The translations under genes were made by a program, and so were the position numbers. A stretch of DNA of 54,936 nt from an uncultured Prevotellaceae bacterium (GTDB taxonomy: Bacteria > Bacteroidota > Bacteroidia > Bacteroidales > Bacteroidaceae). Below, in pieces: positions 1 to 46,988 of this stretch. The notes beneath the pieces were generated by a model. It saw only the letters and a list, made by a program, of their open reading frames with translations, ran no database searches and had not been told where the DNA came from. The stretch is taken from positions 1 to 54,936 of the forward strand of contig CACYKA010000013.1 of NCBI GenBank assembly GCA_902774795.1. The letters run 5' to 3'. The number at the start of each line of letters is the position of its first letter. The first letter of the stretch is position 1.

Positions 1-34
1 AACGCTCATCCTTCGGGGTGGGCGTTGTTATTTT
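1..34 (+). terminator. Rho-independent terminator of an upstream gene
   Basis: Arms at 1-11 and 16-26 pair over 11 bp (two G-U pairs) around a TTCG tetraloop at 12-15, followed by a T-rich run. The gene it ends lies outside the window. Confidence 0.75.
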
Positions 35-46
35 AGGATGTCAATG

Positions 47-152
47 GCTTCGTGATGCGAGGCTTTCATTATTCCCAAGGTGGGAATACTTTACTCCCAG
101 TATGGGAACTTCTTGTTCCCAGTGTGGGAATTTTTTATGCAATAGGGATTGC
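47..152. repeat. Phased palindrome array A (about 22-bp period)
   Basis: Hyphenated palindromes are centred near 55, 79, 101, 123 and 145.5. The best three have the form TCCC-N5-GGGA, with TCCC at 73, 95 and 117 and GGG at 82, 104 and 126, exactly 22 bp apart. The flanking units (GCTTCG/CGAGGC with one G-T pair, GCAAT/ATTGC) have different arms but keep the dyad. There is no credible ORF here. Comparable arrays lie at 38218-38362 and 46097-46285. Confidence 0.7.
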
Positions 153-167
153 TGCCTGATAAGGCAC

Positions 168-240
168 GGGTATTGGATGACAGAGGTAGGTTATTGAACG
201 ATAAGGGCGGGTTATTGAAAATTAAGTGATGGTTATTGAA
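168..240. repeat. 21-nt direct repeats
   Basis: The word GGTTATTGAA starts at 189, 210 and 231, exactly 21 nt apart, with a degenerate fourth copy near 168. It has no dyad symmetry, unlike the adjacent array A. It lies between that array and the 12-nt repeats upstream of the VapE-type gene. Confidence 0.7.
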
Positions 241-248
241 AAATCCCC

Positions 249-373
249 ATCTCTCCCGTCAATCCTTTATGAAGTCCCTGTTTATGGGTGTTTTGGATTT
301 TAATTTATCTGTCATCTCTCCCCTGATCTCTCCCGTTATCTCTCCCGTCATCTCTCACTTGATCTCACACTTT
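249..373. repeat. ATCTCTCCC repeats upstream of the VapE-type gene
   Basis: ATCTCTCCC occurs at 249, 314, 326 and 338, with degenerate copies at 350 and 362. The copies from 314 onward are spaced exactly 12 nt. The same word, mostly in inverted orientation, recurs just after the gene at 1846-1938. The arrangement resembles iterons or repeated operator sites. Confidence 0.75.
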
Positions 374-438
374 AATAATATTAAGGTGAAAATATTGATG
401 TTTTGGTTGCAAATGTAATAAAAATAATTTTGGAGAAA

Positions 439-470
439 TTTGCACATATCAATATTTTTTTGTACCTTTG
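439..470 (+). promoter_or_regulatory. Bacteroidetes-type promoter for the VapE-type gene
   Basis: TTTG at 439-442 and TACCTTTG at 463-470 are separated by 20 bp, matching the known Bacteroidetes -33/-7 consensus. It implies a 5' leader of about 100 nt before the ATG at 576. Confidence 0.75.
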
Positions 471-575
471 CATCGTTCAAAAGAACATATGGCAAGCATG
501 CCATGAGAAGCACGAATCACACGAAGGAGAAAGAATAAAGGAACAGGTTTAACCTCTTTAATTTAATTATTTTTT

Positions 576-38117: not shown

Positions 38118-38217
38118 AGAAGATTTTTACAACACTCCATTATTTTTTATTACATTTATCTTTCAAAATATAACATACCGCCTTTATTTAACATAAAATA
38201 GGTGTTTGCATTATCTT

Positions 38218-38362
38218 TCCCCCTATGAATTTTTTATTTTCTCTTCGAGATATTTTTCTTTTCCTCTAGGGGAATTTTATGTTTCCAGTGCAGAAACTAC
38301 TGTACGCGGTGCAGAAACTACTGTCCTCGGTGCAGAAACATAAGTTCGCGGTGCGGAAATAC
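38218..38362. repeat. Phased palindrome array B (about 21-bp period)
   Basis: Seven units are centred near 38224.5, 38246.5, 38267.5, 38289, 38310, 38331 and 38352, a mean period of 21.25 bp. The first three (CCTATG, TCTTCGAGA, TTCCTCTAGGGGAA) have differing arms with kept or near-kept symmetry. The fourth is GTTTC-N7-GAAAC. The last four share GTGCAGAAAC or a variant, starting exactly every 21 nt from 38288. The array lies in the divergent GH5/DUF4861 intergenic region. Confidence 0.7.
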
Positions 38363-38403
38363 AAAAAACATAAGGGGCTAAAAAAATTTTCTTCGCTGTT
38401 TTC

Positions 38404-38434
38404 TTGCATTTCTCATAACTTAATTGTAACTTTG
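38404..38434 (+). promoter_or_regulatory. Promoter of the DUF4861-kor transcription unit
   Basis: TTGC (38404-38407) and TAACTTTG (38427-38434) are 19 bp apart. The element starts about 40 bp downstream of palindrome array B. Confidence 0.7.
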
Positions 38435-44068: not shown

Positions 44069-45970
44069 CTAATCCAAGACCTCGTACTTACTATGTTGAC
44101 TCTTATATTCAGGTACTACTTCCTTCATCTTCTTCACGATAGCCATATCGTCATACAGCAGAGCCAGTTTGAACAGTTCCTCTTCGTTCTTGAGAGCCTG
44201 CTCATACGGATACTCACGTACTTTGGCTATCTTAATCTTCGGATGAATGGTTGGTTTTGTCTGCTCTTCATCGTTGAGCAGTTCTTCATACAACTTCTCT
44301 CCGTCGCGCAATCCTGTGTATTTTATCTCCACATCTTTTGCTCCGGAAAGGTCTATCATTCGCTGTGCAAGGTCTGCAATGCGTACTGGCTTTCCCATAT
44401 CGAAGATGTAAATCTCACCGCCTTTGCCCATAGTGCCTGCCTCAAGAACAAGTTGACATGCCTCTGGTATGAGCATGAAGTAGCGTATGATGTCTGGATG
44501 TGTCACTGTCAGCGGACCTCCCTTCTTGAGTTGTTGTCTGAACAGCGGTATTACGGAGCCGTTTGAACCAAGGACATTGCCAAAACGTGTGGTAATGAAC
44601 TGTGTGCCCTTCTGGTGGGCGTTCAGCGCCTGACAATAAATCTCGCAGATACGCTTGCTGCATCCCATAACGTTCGTTGGGTTGACAGCCTTGTCTGTTG
44701 AAATCATGACAAACTTCTTTGTGCCATATTTGACAGCAAGGTCTGCTATGATGCGTGTGCCATATACATTATTGGTAATGGCGACACCAGGATTGTTCTC
44801 CATCATCGGAACGTGCTTGTAGGCAGCAGCGTGGAAGACGTATTCTGGTTTATAGTGCTCGAATACATACTCCATAAGAACAGAGGCACAGATGCTTCCT
44901 ACGATTGTCTCGCACGGGATGTCAGAATATTTCCGATTCATGTAGAGGCGCACATCGTGCATTGGAGTCTCTGCCTGATCAACAAGAATGAGATTCGCTG
45001 GCTTGAACTTTGCTATCTGGTGAACCATCTCGCTTCCGATGGAGCCTGCGGCACCAGTAATGAGGATTGTTTTTCCCTTGAGCATCTCGCCGATAGCTGT
45101 GGTATCAATGACAATCTTTTCTCGTGGCAGCAAGTCCTCAACCTCGACATCCTTAAGTTGTTCCTGTTTAATATCTTTCGTAGGATCCCACTCTTCTTCC
45201 TGGATCATCATCAGGATCTTTATCTGCGCCTTGATGAGTTTGTTTACCAGTTCTTCGTTTTCGCGGAAGTTATCTACCTGAAGCGGGCTGACAATAATGG
45301 CGCTTATGCCTGCTTTCCGGAGATGCTGTATGATGTGTGGTCCTGCTCGGCGTACTTTCTTGCCCATAAGGTACTTGCTGTTGAGTGAACCGTCAGGACT
45401 GATAAAGCCGCCTATTTCGTACTTGGAATTAGGATTCTTCAGTAAGGCCTGTGCAATGGATAGGCCACCTTCCTTGACACCATAAATAGCAACCTTTTGG
45501 CGATTCCTTGTTACCTGTACTACCTCATACAGATACTTTATTATAATTCGTAAAGCCCATTGTCCGAAAAGTGCGAGGAGGAACATTACAACGAACGTAA
45601 GGCGTCGGGTGCTATGTATGATGGAACCATACGTCATGAGTTCCCTTATAATCAATACTAGTATGAATCCTACCATCAGCGCAAAAGCCTGTCTCATCAT
45701 GTCGATGGTGCTGCTGTAGCGCATGATGCCAGAATAAGTATGGAACAATCTCATGCCGATGATGAAGAACGGCAGAGTCAGGCACCATGTTCGCAAGATA
45801 TACCAGAAATTATTTGTCAGGGAGTTTTCTCCTTGGACGAAATAAGTGGCTAGTATTCCTGCAAACACAATAATGATACAGTCGATAGCCAAGACGCACC
45901 AATAGGGCAGGGTATTCTTAGAAAAATACCATGAGGCTAATCTTCGGATATGTTCTTTATAGTTTGGCAT
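44069..45970 (-). CDS. CapD/FlaA1-type nucleoside-diphosphate-sugar dehydratase, membrane-bound
   Basis: A 633-aa inner-membrane protein of the WbpM/PglF/CapD type, which convert UDP-GlcNAc to 4-keto-6-deoxy sugars for capsule, O-antigen or glycoprotein glycans. Four hydrophobic segments span about 15-150, followed by a CoA-binding-like nucleotide domain (about 150-270), then an extended SDR domain with TGAAGSIGSEM (about 303-313), HAAAYKHVPMMENNP, STDKAVNPTNVMG and RFGNVLGSNGSVIPLF. Neighbouring glycosyltransferase or transport genes are absent. It has its own promoter, divergent from rpsL across palindrome array C. Confidence 0.9.
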   Translation of the reverse strand: MPNYKEHIRRLASWYFSKNTLPYWCVLAIDCIIIVFAGILATYFVQGENSLTNNFWYILRTWCLTLPFFIIGMRLFHTYSGIMRYSSTIDMMRQAFALMVGFILVLIIRELMTYGSIIHSTRRLTFVVMFLLALFGQWALRIIIKYLYEVVQVTRNRQKVAIYGVKEGGLSIAQALLKNPNSKYEIGGFISPDGSLNSKYLMGKKVRRAGPHIIQHLRKAGISAIIVSPLQVDNFRENEELVNKLIKAQIKILMMIQEEEWDPTKDIKQEQLKDVEVEDLLPREKIVIDTTAIGEMLKGKTILITGAAGSIGSEMVHQIAKFKPANLILVDQAETPMHDVRLYMNRKYSDIPCETIVGSICASVLMEYVFEHYKPEYVFHAAAYKHVPMMENNPGVAITNNVYGTRIIADLAVKYGTKKFVMISTDKAVNPTNVMGCSKRICEIYCQALNAHQKGTQFITTRFGNVLGSNGSVIPLFRQQLKKGGPLTVTHPDIIRYFMLIPEACQLVLEAGTMGKGGEIYIFDMGKPVRIADLAQRMIDLSGAKDVEIKYTGLRDGEKLYEELLNDEEQTKPTIHPKIKIAKVREYPYEQALKNEEELFKLALLYDDMAIVKKMKEVVPEYKSQHSKYEVLD

Positions 45971-45996: not shown

Positions 45997-46027
45997 CAAA
46001 GATACTTATTTTTTATAATATATGCAA
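45997..46027 (-). promoter_or_regulatory. Promoter of the CapD-like gene
   Basis: On the minus strand TATCTTTG (46004-45997) is preceded by TTGC (46027-46024) with 19-bp spacing. Confidence 0.7.
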
Positions 46028-46096: not shown

Positions 46097-46285
46097 GTAC
46101 ATATCTGTGTACAATTTGTCCGCCTATGAATGCAATTTTGTCCGCCTAGGAATTATTTTTCCCTAACTGGGAAGAAAATGTTTTCTGCCTAGGGAACAAA
46201 TTTTTCATAGTTATGCAGCAAATTTTTGTTTCCCTTAAGGGTTGCAATTTTTATCCTTAGGGATTACAAATTTTTCCCCTAACAC
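46097..46285. repeat. Phased palindrome array C (22-bp mean period)
   Basis: Nine units are centred near 46104.5, 46125.5, 46147.5, 46166, 46190.5, 46210.5, 46236.5, 46258.5 and 46280.5, a mean of exactly 22 bp with individual steps of 18.5-26. Units include GTAC-N8-GTAC, CCTAGG, TTCCC-N5-GGGAA, CATAGTTATG, CCCTTAAGGG and ATCCTTAGGGAT. The second (CCTATG) and the last (CCCCTAAC) are imperfect. T-rich spacers separate many units. Arm sequences differ but most dyads hold. Confidence 0.75.
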
Positions 46286-46419: not shown

Positions 46420-46450
46420 TTTGCCATGTTTAATATATTTCGTACCTTTG
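46420..46450 (+). promoter_or_regulatory. Promoter of the str operon
   Basis: TTTG (46420-46423) and TACCTTTG (46443-46450) are 19 bp apart. The ~150-nt leader to rpsL contains a small hairpin AGCAT-CGCCTT-ATGCT (46540-46555). Confidence 0.75.
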
Positions 46451-46604: not shown

Positions 46605-46988
46605 ATGCCTACAATTCAACAATTGGTAAGAAAAGGCAGGAAGGTACTTGTAGACAAGAGCAAGTCACCAGCTTTGGACTCATGTCCACAGCGTCGTGGG
46701 GTGTGCGTGCGTGTGTATACAACTACCCCTAAGAAGCCTAACTCGGCTATGCGTAAGGTAGCCCGTGTTCGACTGACGAACACAAAAGAAGTGAACTCAT
46801 ACATACCTGGAGAAGGACACAACTTGCAGGAACACTCAATCGTTCTTGTACGTGGTGGTCGTGTAAAAGACCTTCCAGGTGTACGTTATCACATCGTACG
46901 TGGAACACTCGATACAGCAGGTGTTGCTTCACGTACACAGCGTCGCTCTAAGTACGGAGCAAAGAGGCCTAAGGCTGCTAAGAAGTAA
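46605..46988 (+). CDS. rpsL: 30S ribosomal protein S12
   Basis: S12 is the decoding-centre protein and streptomycin target. The 127-aa protein has [20 protein letters not shown] with Lys43 and [13 protein letters not shown] with Lys88, both the sensitive-type residues. The C-terminal tail is lysine/alanine-rich. It is the first gene of the str/S10 run, with its own promoter and a structured leader. Confidence 0.98.

Follow-up and report, generated by a model that had tools for sequence, protein, structure and literature searches.

Array C, a run of about eight diverged 22-bp units beside the ribosomal protein gene rpsL, looks like a diverged example of a class of arrays that lie between genes in the Prevotella–Bacteroides lineage, which we take to be the Bacteroidaceae of GTDB. 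What the members share is pitch and symmetry rather than sequence: their units measure 21–22 bp and often consist of inverted half-sites. We infer that proteins bind here and tentatively read the arrays as docking sites for putative dimeric DNA-binding proteins, carried on short elements; we put the probability of this reading at roughly 0.4.

Location of array C

The window, meaning the whole 54,936-nt stretch of DNA that was analysed, lies on contig C13 of a genome (G000) of 2.44 Mb and 79% completeness. Among named genomes its closest relatives are MAGs of Prevotella and Prevotellaceae, of which two come from the gut of sheep. The features at and around array C are as follows, L078 being the locus of the nearest named relative found.

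44069–45970, minus strand: left neighbour, gene for a nucleotide-sugar (polysaccharide) epimerase/dehydratase (Pfam, Polysacc_synt_2)
45997–46004, minus strand: CAAAGATA (minus strand TATCTTTG), likely −7 element of the epimerase gene (from the sequence and the consensus assumed below)
46097–46285, no strand: array C, some eight 22-bp units that have diverged from one another, spaced by T-tracts, the unit being palindromic in part (from lag-22 self-identity, short-dyad excess and the unit column test)
46097–46112, no strand: array C unit 1, imperfect palindrome GTACATATCTGTGTAC
46114–46155, no strand: array C units 2–3, a near-exact 22-bp duplication (AATTTTGTCCGCCTA..) with cores CCTATG / CCTAGG, without counterpart in L078
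46159–46173, no strand: array C unit 4, dyad TTCCC-TAACT-GGGAA (read from the sequence)
46196–46285, no strand: conserved core of array C, units 5b–9 (by identity to L078), containing the palindromes CATAGTTATG (46206–46215), CCCTTAAGGG (46232–46241) and ATCCTTAGGGAT (46253–46264)
46443–46450, plus strand: TACCTTTG, likely −7 element of rpsL (from the sequence and the consensus assumed below)
46605–46988, plus strand: right neighbour, rpsL (ribosomal protein S12; Pfam), first gene of the str operon (operon name from the earlier note)

Both promoter elements were named on the basis of the Bacteroidota −7 consensus, which we take to be TAnnTTTG. The CAAAnnTA of the likely epimerase element is kept in 5/5 aligned species, and the likely −7 element of rpsL is invariant across five aligned species. 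Array C is likely to sit between these divergent promoter elements and outside both expected transcripts. A minus-strand ORF of 95 aa overlaps the right end of the array.

The sequence of array C: a worn tandem repeat with a partly palindromic unit

Array C had been described from its letters as nine changing palindromes on a grid of about 22 bp, separated by T-rich spacers and maintained by selection on the dyad rather than by copying of a sequence. The palindromes named at the time (CCTAGG, CATAGTTATG, CCCTTAAGGG and ATCCTTAGGGAT) are present, as are the spacers, in the form of seven T-runs (at 46136, 46156, 46181, 46201, 46223, 46248 and 46271) with steps of 20–25 bp. The grid exists at the level of sequence: identity at lag 22 is 0.491, a value that 0 of 1000 shuffles reached at any lag from 19 to 25. 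It does not extend to the dyad centres, whose 22-bp phasing was reached by 666 of 1000 shuffles and whose best period by 972 of 1000, and the pitch inside the array is loose (20–25).

The symmetry itself also stood only in part. Short dyads are in excess, with a total score of 44.0 compared with 23.0 (sd 8.1) in dinucleotide shuffles (reached by 2 of 200), and of 53.0 compared with 26.3 when loops of up to 8 are allowed (0 of 200). Dyads of hairpin strength are no commoner than in shuffles, 57, 40 and 23 of 200 of which reached the observed value, as did 38 of 500 in a separate test of hairpin-grade dyads; the dyad score summed over all centres was reached by 57 of 1000. By eye, units 2 (CCTATG) and 9 (CCCCTAAC) are poor palindromes. 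When eight units were cut by hand at the T-runs, a column-permutation test found the unit to be palindromic (z 2.1, p 0.030). Since the period is carried by the sequence and the consensus is mildly palindromic, array C is a worn 22-bp tandem repeat of a partly palindromic unit. Its units are diverged copies, and many of its arms are variants of CC-T-A-GG in T-rich DNA rather than free inventions. The proposal of selection on the dyad instead of a copied sequence is not supported on this point, nor by the arms inside the units of 45 arrays, which do not compensate (see below).

The core of array C (units 5b–9) is identical to L078 at 75 of 89 positions, compared with 81/124 and 69/97 in the spacers on either side, and is thus better conserved than its flanks (Fisher p 0.003); the rpsL promoter matches at 33/41 positions and the rpsL leader at 134/147. 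Most of the upper units are missing from L078, where units 1–5a contain 75 gapped columns, about 3.4 units' worth. The earlier note had proposed looking for compensatory arm changes between orthologues, and L078 gave one case of each kind: in unit 6 one arm changed (CATAGTTATG/CGTAGTTATG) and its partner did not, whereas unit 8 (ATCCttagGGAT/CCCCTAGGGG) differs between the two genomes and retains its dyad in both. Four relatives that are 80–88% identical at and around the rpsL promoter carry different, shorter sets of palindromes at the place of array C, among them TTCCCacacttGGGAA and TTCCCaaagcYGGGAA, which align poorly with it. Within G000, only a 58-bp stretch of the array recurs, at 91%. 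Unit pairs related to array C occur in the relatives G370, G098, G255 and G042, and matches at E ≤ 0.01, some of them weak and partial, in 15 of 398 genus genomes including its own.

Tandem-repeat periods in sampled intergenic DNA of the lineage peak at 21–22 bp

Tandem repeats were surveyed with TRF in intergenic DNA of the lineage, 312 kb in all. The sample comprised stretches of G000 and G098, 18 loci of other close relatives, 34 Bacteroides and allied loci, and 40 stretches of ten complete genus genomes. The 52 named loci, some with order-level names only, all surround one gene and hence form no random sample. Genes were called with our own codon-scored script, which replaced a cruder caller, and intergenic borders are approximate. 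Where TRF rows shared more than half of their extent, the best row alone was kept; the count of indels used all rows.

Array numbers peak sharply at periods of 21–22 bp, with 3 arrays at 19 bp, 2 at 20, 23 at 21, 50 at 22, 4 at 23, 6 at 24 and 2 at 25; periods 11 and 33 are low (8 and 2 arrays). A second peak lies at 14 bp (32 arrays), twice a common heptamer, with numbers falling from 17 at 9 bp, and the 21-bp class includes arrays built from heptamers (3 × 7). Tandem repeats of 7 bp are common in the intergenic DNA of G000 and G098 (26 and 47 TRF places; for example CGGTTAG), with higher orders at 14 and 21 bp. Eight pooled intergenic arrays have a period of 44 bp (2 × 22), suggesting higher-order units. 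The ten complete genus genomes alone contributed 31 arrays at 22 bp, 4 at 21 bp and one each at 20, 23 and 24 bp, and nine of the ten hold 1–6 arrays of 21–22 bp, in 80 kb for each genome. Such arrays are present in 9 of the 34 Bacteroides-type loci.

Shuffled intergenic DNA (four sets, three shuffles each) contained no arrays at 21–22 bp, save one at 21 bp in the set from other Bacteroidales, and the coding DNA of the four sets (1,337 kb) held five at 21 bp and one at 22 bp. Planted arrays were detected in 30 of 60 cases at 12 bp and in 33–47 of 60 at 15–36 bp, with no peak at 21–22 bp. Other Bacteroidales families yielded 2 arrays of 21–22 bp in 97.4 kb, where 22.8 were expected (Poisson 3.6e-8); this outgroup count does not include fourteen loci of Proteiniphilum type, whose 14.4 kb of intergenic DNA held one array, at 24 bp. 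Four stretches of E. coli K-12 (40.7 kb intergenic) had no arrays of 21–22 bp and one at 20 bp. By the orientation of the flanking genes, the arrays divide into 15 convergent, 23 divergent and 47 tandem cases, or 27.6, 29.2 and 26.2 per 100 kb, an even density that speaks against classical promoter control.

Grouping the 73 arrays of 21–22 bp by unit at 72% circular identity gave 59 families, of which nine have two or more members. Among uncollapsed TRF rows of 21–22 bp with at least 2.3 copies, 45 of 74 are free of indels, and copies match one another at 78% on average. A search of 358 genomes for relatives of the 5.5-copy array L327 found none beyond itself.

Symmetry and conservation of the units

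In a column-permutation test of arrays of 21–23 bp with at least 2.3 copies, 33 of 65 had a palindromic unit at p ≤ 0.05 and 22 of 65 at p ≤ 0.01. By period, palindromic units were found in 23/50 arrays at 22 bp, 11/23 at 21 bp, 4/10 at 23–24 bp and 6/23 at 25–60 bp, compared with 0/2 at 20 bp, 3/33 at 15–19 bp, 2/32 at 14 bp, 0/14 at 12–13 bp and 2/37 at 9–11 bp. Unit palindromy thus belongs to the 21–22 bp class and its longer kin, where it is far commoner than at shorter periods; 39 of the 73 arrays of 21–22 bp are without significant symmetry, and of the consensus units taken alone (20–24 bp) 16 of 85 are palindromic at p ≤ 0.05. The spacing of two helical turns with palindromic units, which the earlier note had seen in the window, is therefore genuine and specific, and recurs across the genomes that were sampled. 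Inverted half-sites in units of 21–22 bp place symmetry axes about every 11 bp, one helical turn.

In a leave-one-out comparison of 45 arrays, paired columns (arms) matched at 0.910 (1185/1302) and unpaired ones (loops and linkers) at 0.821 (339/413); the cells are not independent, and counted by array 18 of 30 agree and 11 show the opposite. The pool, if not each array, thus has the make-up of a dimer operator array, with inverted half-sites at helical pitch that are better kept than the rest. The arms do not compensate for one another within units, where 1611 paired cells were observed and 1624.8 expected (sd 10.1, z −1.36), and far pairing, with letters re-dealt among units, is likewise unremarkable (2357 and 2343.6, sd 9.4, z +1.4). 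This lack of covariation within arrays counts both against hairpins of RNA or single-stranded DNA and against selection on the dyad. Compensatory base pairs, the mark of a structured RNA, were thus not in excess within the 45 arrays, and the signal between genomes is weak, with few events.

Two broader measures were set aside. Lags between dyad centres over all intergenic DNA are in excess at 20–24 bp, but are mixed with the lags of AT repeats and do not serve as main evidence. A detector of phased dyads found 13 cases compared with 4.1 in shuffles (G000) and 21 compared with 7.8 (G098), and also catches apparent tRNAs. At three loci (L031 2960–3280, L035 3150–3370 and L036 3160–3500; G000:C2, G098:C4), short palindromic tandem repeats such as GTGACACGTGACA and GAGACGCTGAGACGC accompany an AT-rich TATATA stretch. 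This intergenic layout resembles iterons beside an unwinding region; the unit sequence is locus-specific, and in L031 and L035 the repeats are also present inverted.

Arrays A and B and the dispersed elements

Arrays A and B, which the earlier note had grouped with array C, differ among themselves.

70–152, no strand: array A1, TTCCCA-NNN-TGGGAA palindromes at about 22 bp
38215–38405, no strand: array B with flanking palindromes (by eye, borders approximate); the stretch is missing from the same intergenic region in G370
38282–38365, no strand: array B core, four 21-bp units (16-bp core and 5-bp spacer) of a dispersed element

The dyads of A1 were reached by 0–2 of 200 shuffles, and A2 and A3 had none at any of five settings. 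Array B is not enriched in dyads by shuffle count (75–200 of 200 reach the observed value), yet it is a clear element of 4 × 21 bp. The three distinct repeat arrays at window positions 1–560, with periods of 22, 21 and 12 bp and the last two without dyads, precede a VapE-like gene (576–1835).

The array-B element has at least five copies in G000, at least five in G098, at least two in G081 and at least one in G097, and its sequence is genome-specific, with copies matching the query at 77–91% in G000 and 80–86% in G098. Matches at E ≤ 0.001 were found in 4 of 150 genomes with one query and 5 of 150 in another search. Of 16 places, 13 were aligned, the exclusions being G81_C72 (decayed), G117 (three units at 22 bp) and G043 (flank match only). 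All 13 aligned elements have four 21-bp units, set between variants of ATTTTATG and CATAAAAT together with further palindromes. These inverted ends adjoin the units, by eye, as exact ATTTTATG on the left in 8/13 and exact CATAAAAT on the right in 3/13, the others being near-matches, and on either side homology tapers off with no clear border. No counterpart of array B lies between the same gene pair in G370, and at the S16–thrA gene pair, which also holds a copy, G192 has none. Other loci are less informative because neighbour genes differ or the contig ends. No target-site duplication was seen by eye at array-B sites, and the G370 and G192 sites without the element may also be deletions. At the site in G192 that is orthologous to array B (L230, about 1100–1250), tandem promoter-like copies (TTAATCGTACCTTTGACTTCG) lie upstream of a DUF4861 gene, where G000 has array B. 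In G098 this gene was matched in two pieces (G098:C1:348511-349544), perhaps because of a frameshift or a broken gene.

In 12 of 13 array-B elements the best-scoring axis is a global one that lies between units 2 and 3, pairing 69.1% compared with at most 46.5% in slid versions, and pairing and covariation about this axis were reached by 3 and 5 of 500 shuffles. Cells and pairs changed on both sides are not above shuffles there (139 and 428 of 500), and local pairing is weaker than global (59, 67, 220 and 492 of 500). Left and right arms alike have different sequences in G000 and G098 (TTTCCG/CGGAAA compared with TTCAAG/CTTGAA). A second dispersed family (GGTAATnnnATTACC) occurs at two places each in G024, G125 and G158, these being 3 of 358 genomes searched. 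Seven of its ten listed dyad axes lie 11 bp apart, at 22, 33, 44, 55, 66, 77 and 88, two of them weak; the alignment omits gapped columns, which are extra units in some copies. Between G024 and the others, one unit differs on both sides in two of its pairs (GGTAAT/ATTACC compared with TGTAAC/GTTACA), and covariation in this family was reached by 11 and 14 of 500 shuffles; doubly changed pairs are not above shuffles (347 and 274 of 500). Such two-sided arm changes between species, few as the lineage events are, fit a shifting preference of a dimer for its site better than the upkeep of a hairpin.

Candidate drivers and functions of the elements were considered. No theme emerged among 20 neighbours of ten elements or among the neighbours of array B, and a regulon reading was dropped. 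A RAYT/IS200-type transposase was rejected as driver: Y1_Tnp genes occur in G000, G098 and G081, and the flanks of the three best contain no array, the G000 gene lying at a contig end with its upstream side outside the DNA examined. The absence of Y1 transposase genes from G370, G255 and G192 says little, as these assemblies are 67–78% complete. Downstream of the Y1 transposase gene of G098:C4 (L233, 2270–2480) lie repeats around GAACCGTCCCC and runs of TGATCCCT, perhaps the REP family of the adjoining RAYT-like enzyme.

Comparison with known systems

The nearest described system that we found is BrickBuilt of Porphyromonas gingivalis. This MITE is described as intergenic and dispersed, with an imperfect 23-nt tandem repeat, a leader and a tail, and inverted-repeat ends; repeat number runs from 1 to 22.8, and its authors found no match outside P. 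gingivalis (PMC4596501). The arrays reported here are likewise intergenic, some are dispersed, and the unit length is nearly equal; the array-B element in particular shares with a BrickBuilt-like MITE the dispersed intergenic copies, the tandem repeat and the common flanks. The likeness claimed is one of layout. BrickBuilt is one family of variable repeat number in one species, whereas here there are 59 families with a common pitch, and the unit number of the array-B elements is four in all 13 that were aligned. REP and BIME palindromes are short, intergenic and in some cases tandem, carry GTAG or CGTC tags and have variable dimer spacers, mostly of 20–100 bp (PMC3733652). The present arrays are alike in being short intergenic palindromes and unlike in their fixed pitch and in showing no common tag. 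Palindromes at a Y1 gene, as expected of REP with RAYT, were not found around the three best Y1_Tnp genes (G000, G098 and G081).

Binding sites that recur at intervals of roughly two turns and face the same side of the helix are known from the iterons of plasmid origins and from tandem operators such as ARG boxes and Lrp sites. Iterons are direct repeats tied to a Rep gene, and tandem operators share one sequence across a regulon. Here the two-turn spacing is alike, but neither a link to a Rep gene nor a regulon-wide sequence was seen. The arrays resemble CRISPR in being regular and tandem, and we agree with the earlier note that they are something else, as the 22-bp units abut and there is no constant repeat with unique spacers. 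That note knew of no named element with this pattern, and none matching it turned up in our literature search. The search, mostly of papers free of subscription, found no description of a 21–22 bp palindromic class in this lineage; within the literature searched, and the claim goes no further, the class in Prevotella–Bacteroides relatives is apparently undescribed.

Discussion

The arrays could be selfish, short MITE-like elements with an internal palindromic minisatellite, moved by some transposase, expanding and decaying in their repeats and useless to the host, an account that we find somewhat unlikely. It would explain the genome-specific multiplication of the array-B element in G000, G098 and G081 and the paired places of the second family in G024, G125 and G158, it has a known parallel in BrickBuilt, and it gains from the absence of the array-B element from its sites in G370 and G192, which deletion in these relatives may also have produced. 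Neither a target-site duplication nor a transposase is tied to the elements, the Y1 genes examined have no array around them, and one pitch in 59 unlike sequence families is not explained by a single mobile element. Another possibility is a mutational habit, in which slippage or template switching makes duplications of 21–22 bp, preferably at palindromes, and leaves the arrays as neutral debris. Such a habit would show no orientation preference, as observed, and would suit the fast turnover between species at the rpsL site, including the 3.4 or so units' worth gained or lost in array C; the near-absence of arrays from coding DNA may then reflect purged frameshifts. The low numbers at periods 11 and 33 beside the 22-bp peak do not suit it: no slippage process known to us would settle on 22 bp and leave those two periods scarce. 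With arms better kept than loops, and the core of array C better kept than its flanks, we consider this origin quite improbable.

Very unlikely, in our estimate, is that structured RNA or single-stranded DNA is the working form, as tandem small hairpins or as one long stem. Some sequences do fold well: two overlapping parts of array C gave z values of −3.4 and −4.1, and −3.2 and −1.5, on the two strands, two elements of array-B type gave −5.6 and −5.7 (L176) and −4.4 and −3.2 (L162), and the global axis of 12 in 13 array-B elements would accord with a long stem. The window's own array B folds poorly (z −1.4 and +0.4), arrays show no internal covariation, local or far, and array C lies between likely divergent promoters and outside the expected transcripts. 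In the window, only tRNAs reach Rfam gathering scores, and seven matches in five loci all fall below theirs.

Docking arrays are the reading we favour because of the fixed two-turn pitch, the half-sites about every 11 bp, the better-kept arms and the two-sided arm shifts. The constant four units of the aligned array-B elements and the better-kept core of array C also speak for it. A single protein dimer would bind at each unit; adjacent dimers would line up along the same face of the helix, and the array would gather a cooperative complex of several dimers. At array C, the complex would sit between the two promoters, that of the epimerase gene and that of rpsL. Half-sites that vary between arrays would imply different binders, or a preference that drifts fast, and the complex may serve the host, in nucleoid folding or promoter insulation, or only the element. 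Against docking, a single binder would hardly be expected to use half-sites that are unrelated from array to array, and the half-unit spacing of axes follows from any tandem palindrome. The lack of covariation within arrays, the 11 of 30 arrays in which arms are not the better kept, the loose pitch of array C and the 39 of 73 arrays with no significant symmetry weigh against it as well. No promoter role is visible, the scanned neighbour genes have no theme, and the covariation across genomes amounts to few lineage events, with several measures at or below shuffles.

More broadly, and with considerable doubt on our part, the lineage may hold a class of intergenic elements defined by geometry, with inverted half-sites every 11 bp whose sequence differs from family to family. 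If docking is the right reading, there would be either diversified dimeric proteins that coat DNA or a single protein guided by symmetry and pitch more than by sequence. If the geometric class is real, it would add a so far unrecognised level to the way the chromosome is organised, or to the conflict of short elements with their hosts. Short tandem repeats in bacteria are usually seen as neutral markers, family by family. A period and a symmetry common to 59 families in one major gut lineage, and rare in its sampled neighbours, call for one common cause; be it a coating protein, the enzyme of a mobile element or a quirk of replication, such a cause would explain recurring intergenic DNA of Prevotella and Bacteroides.
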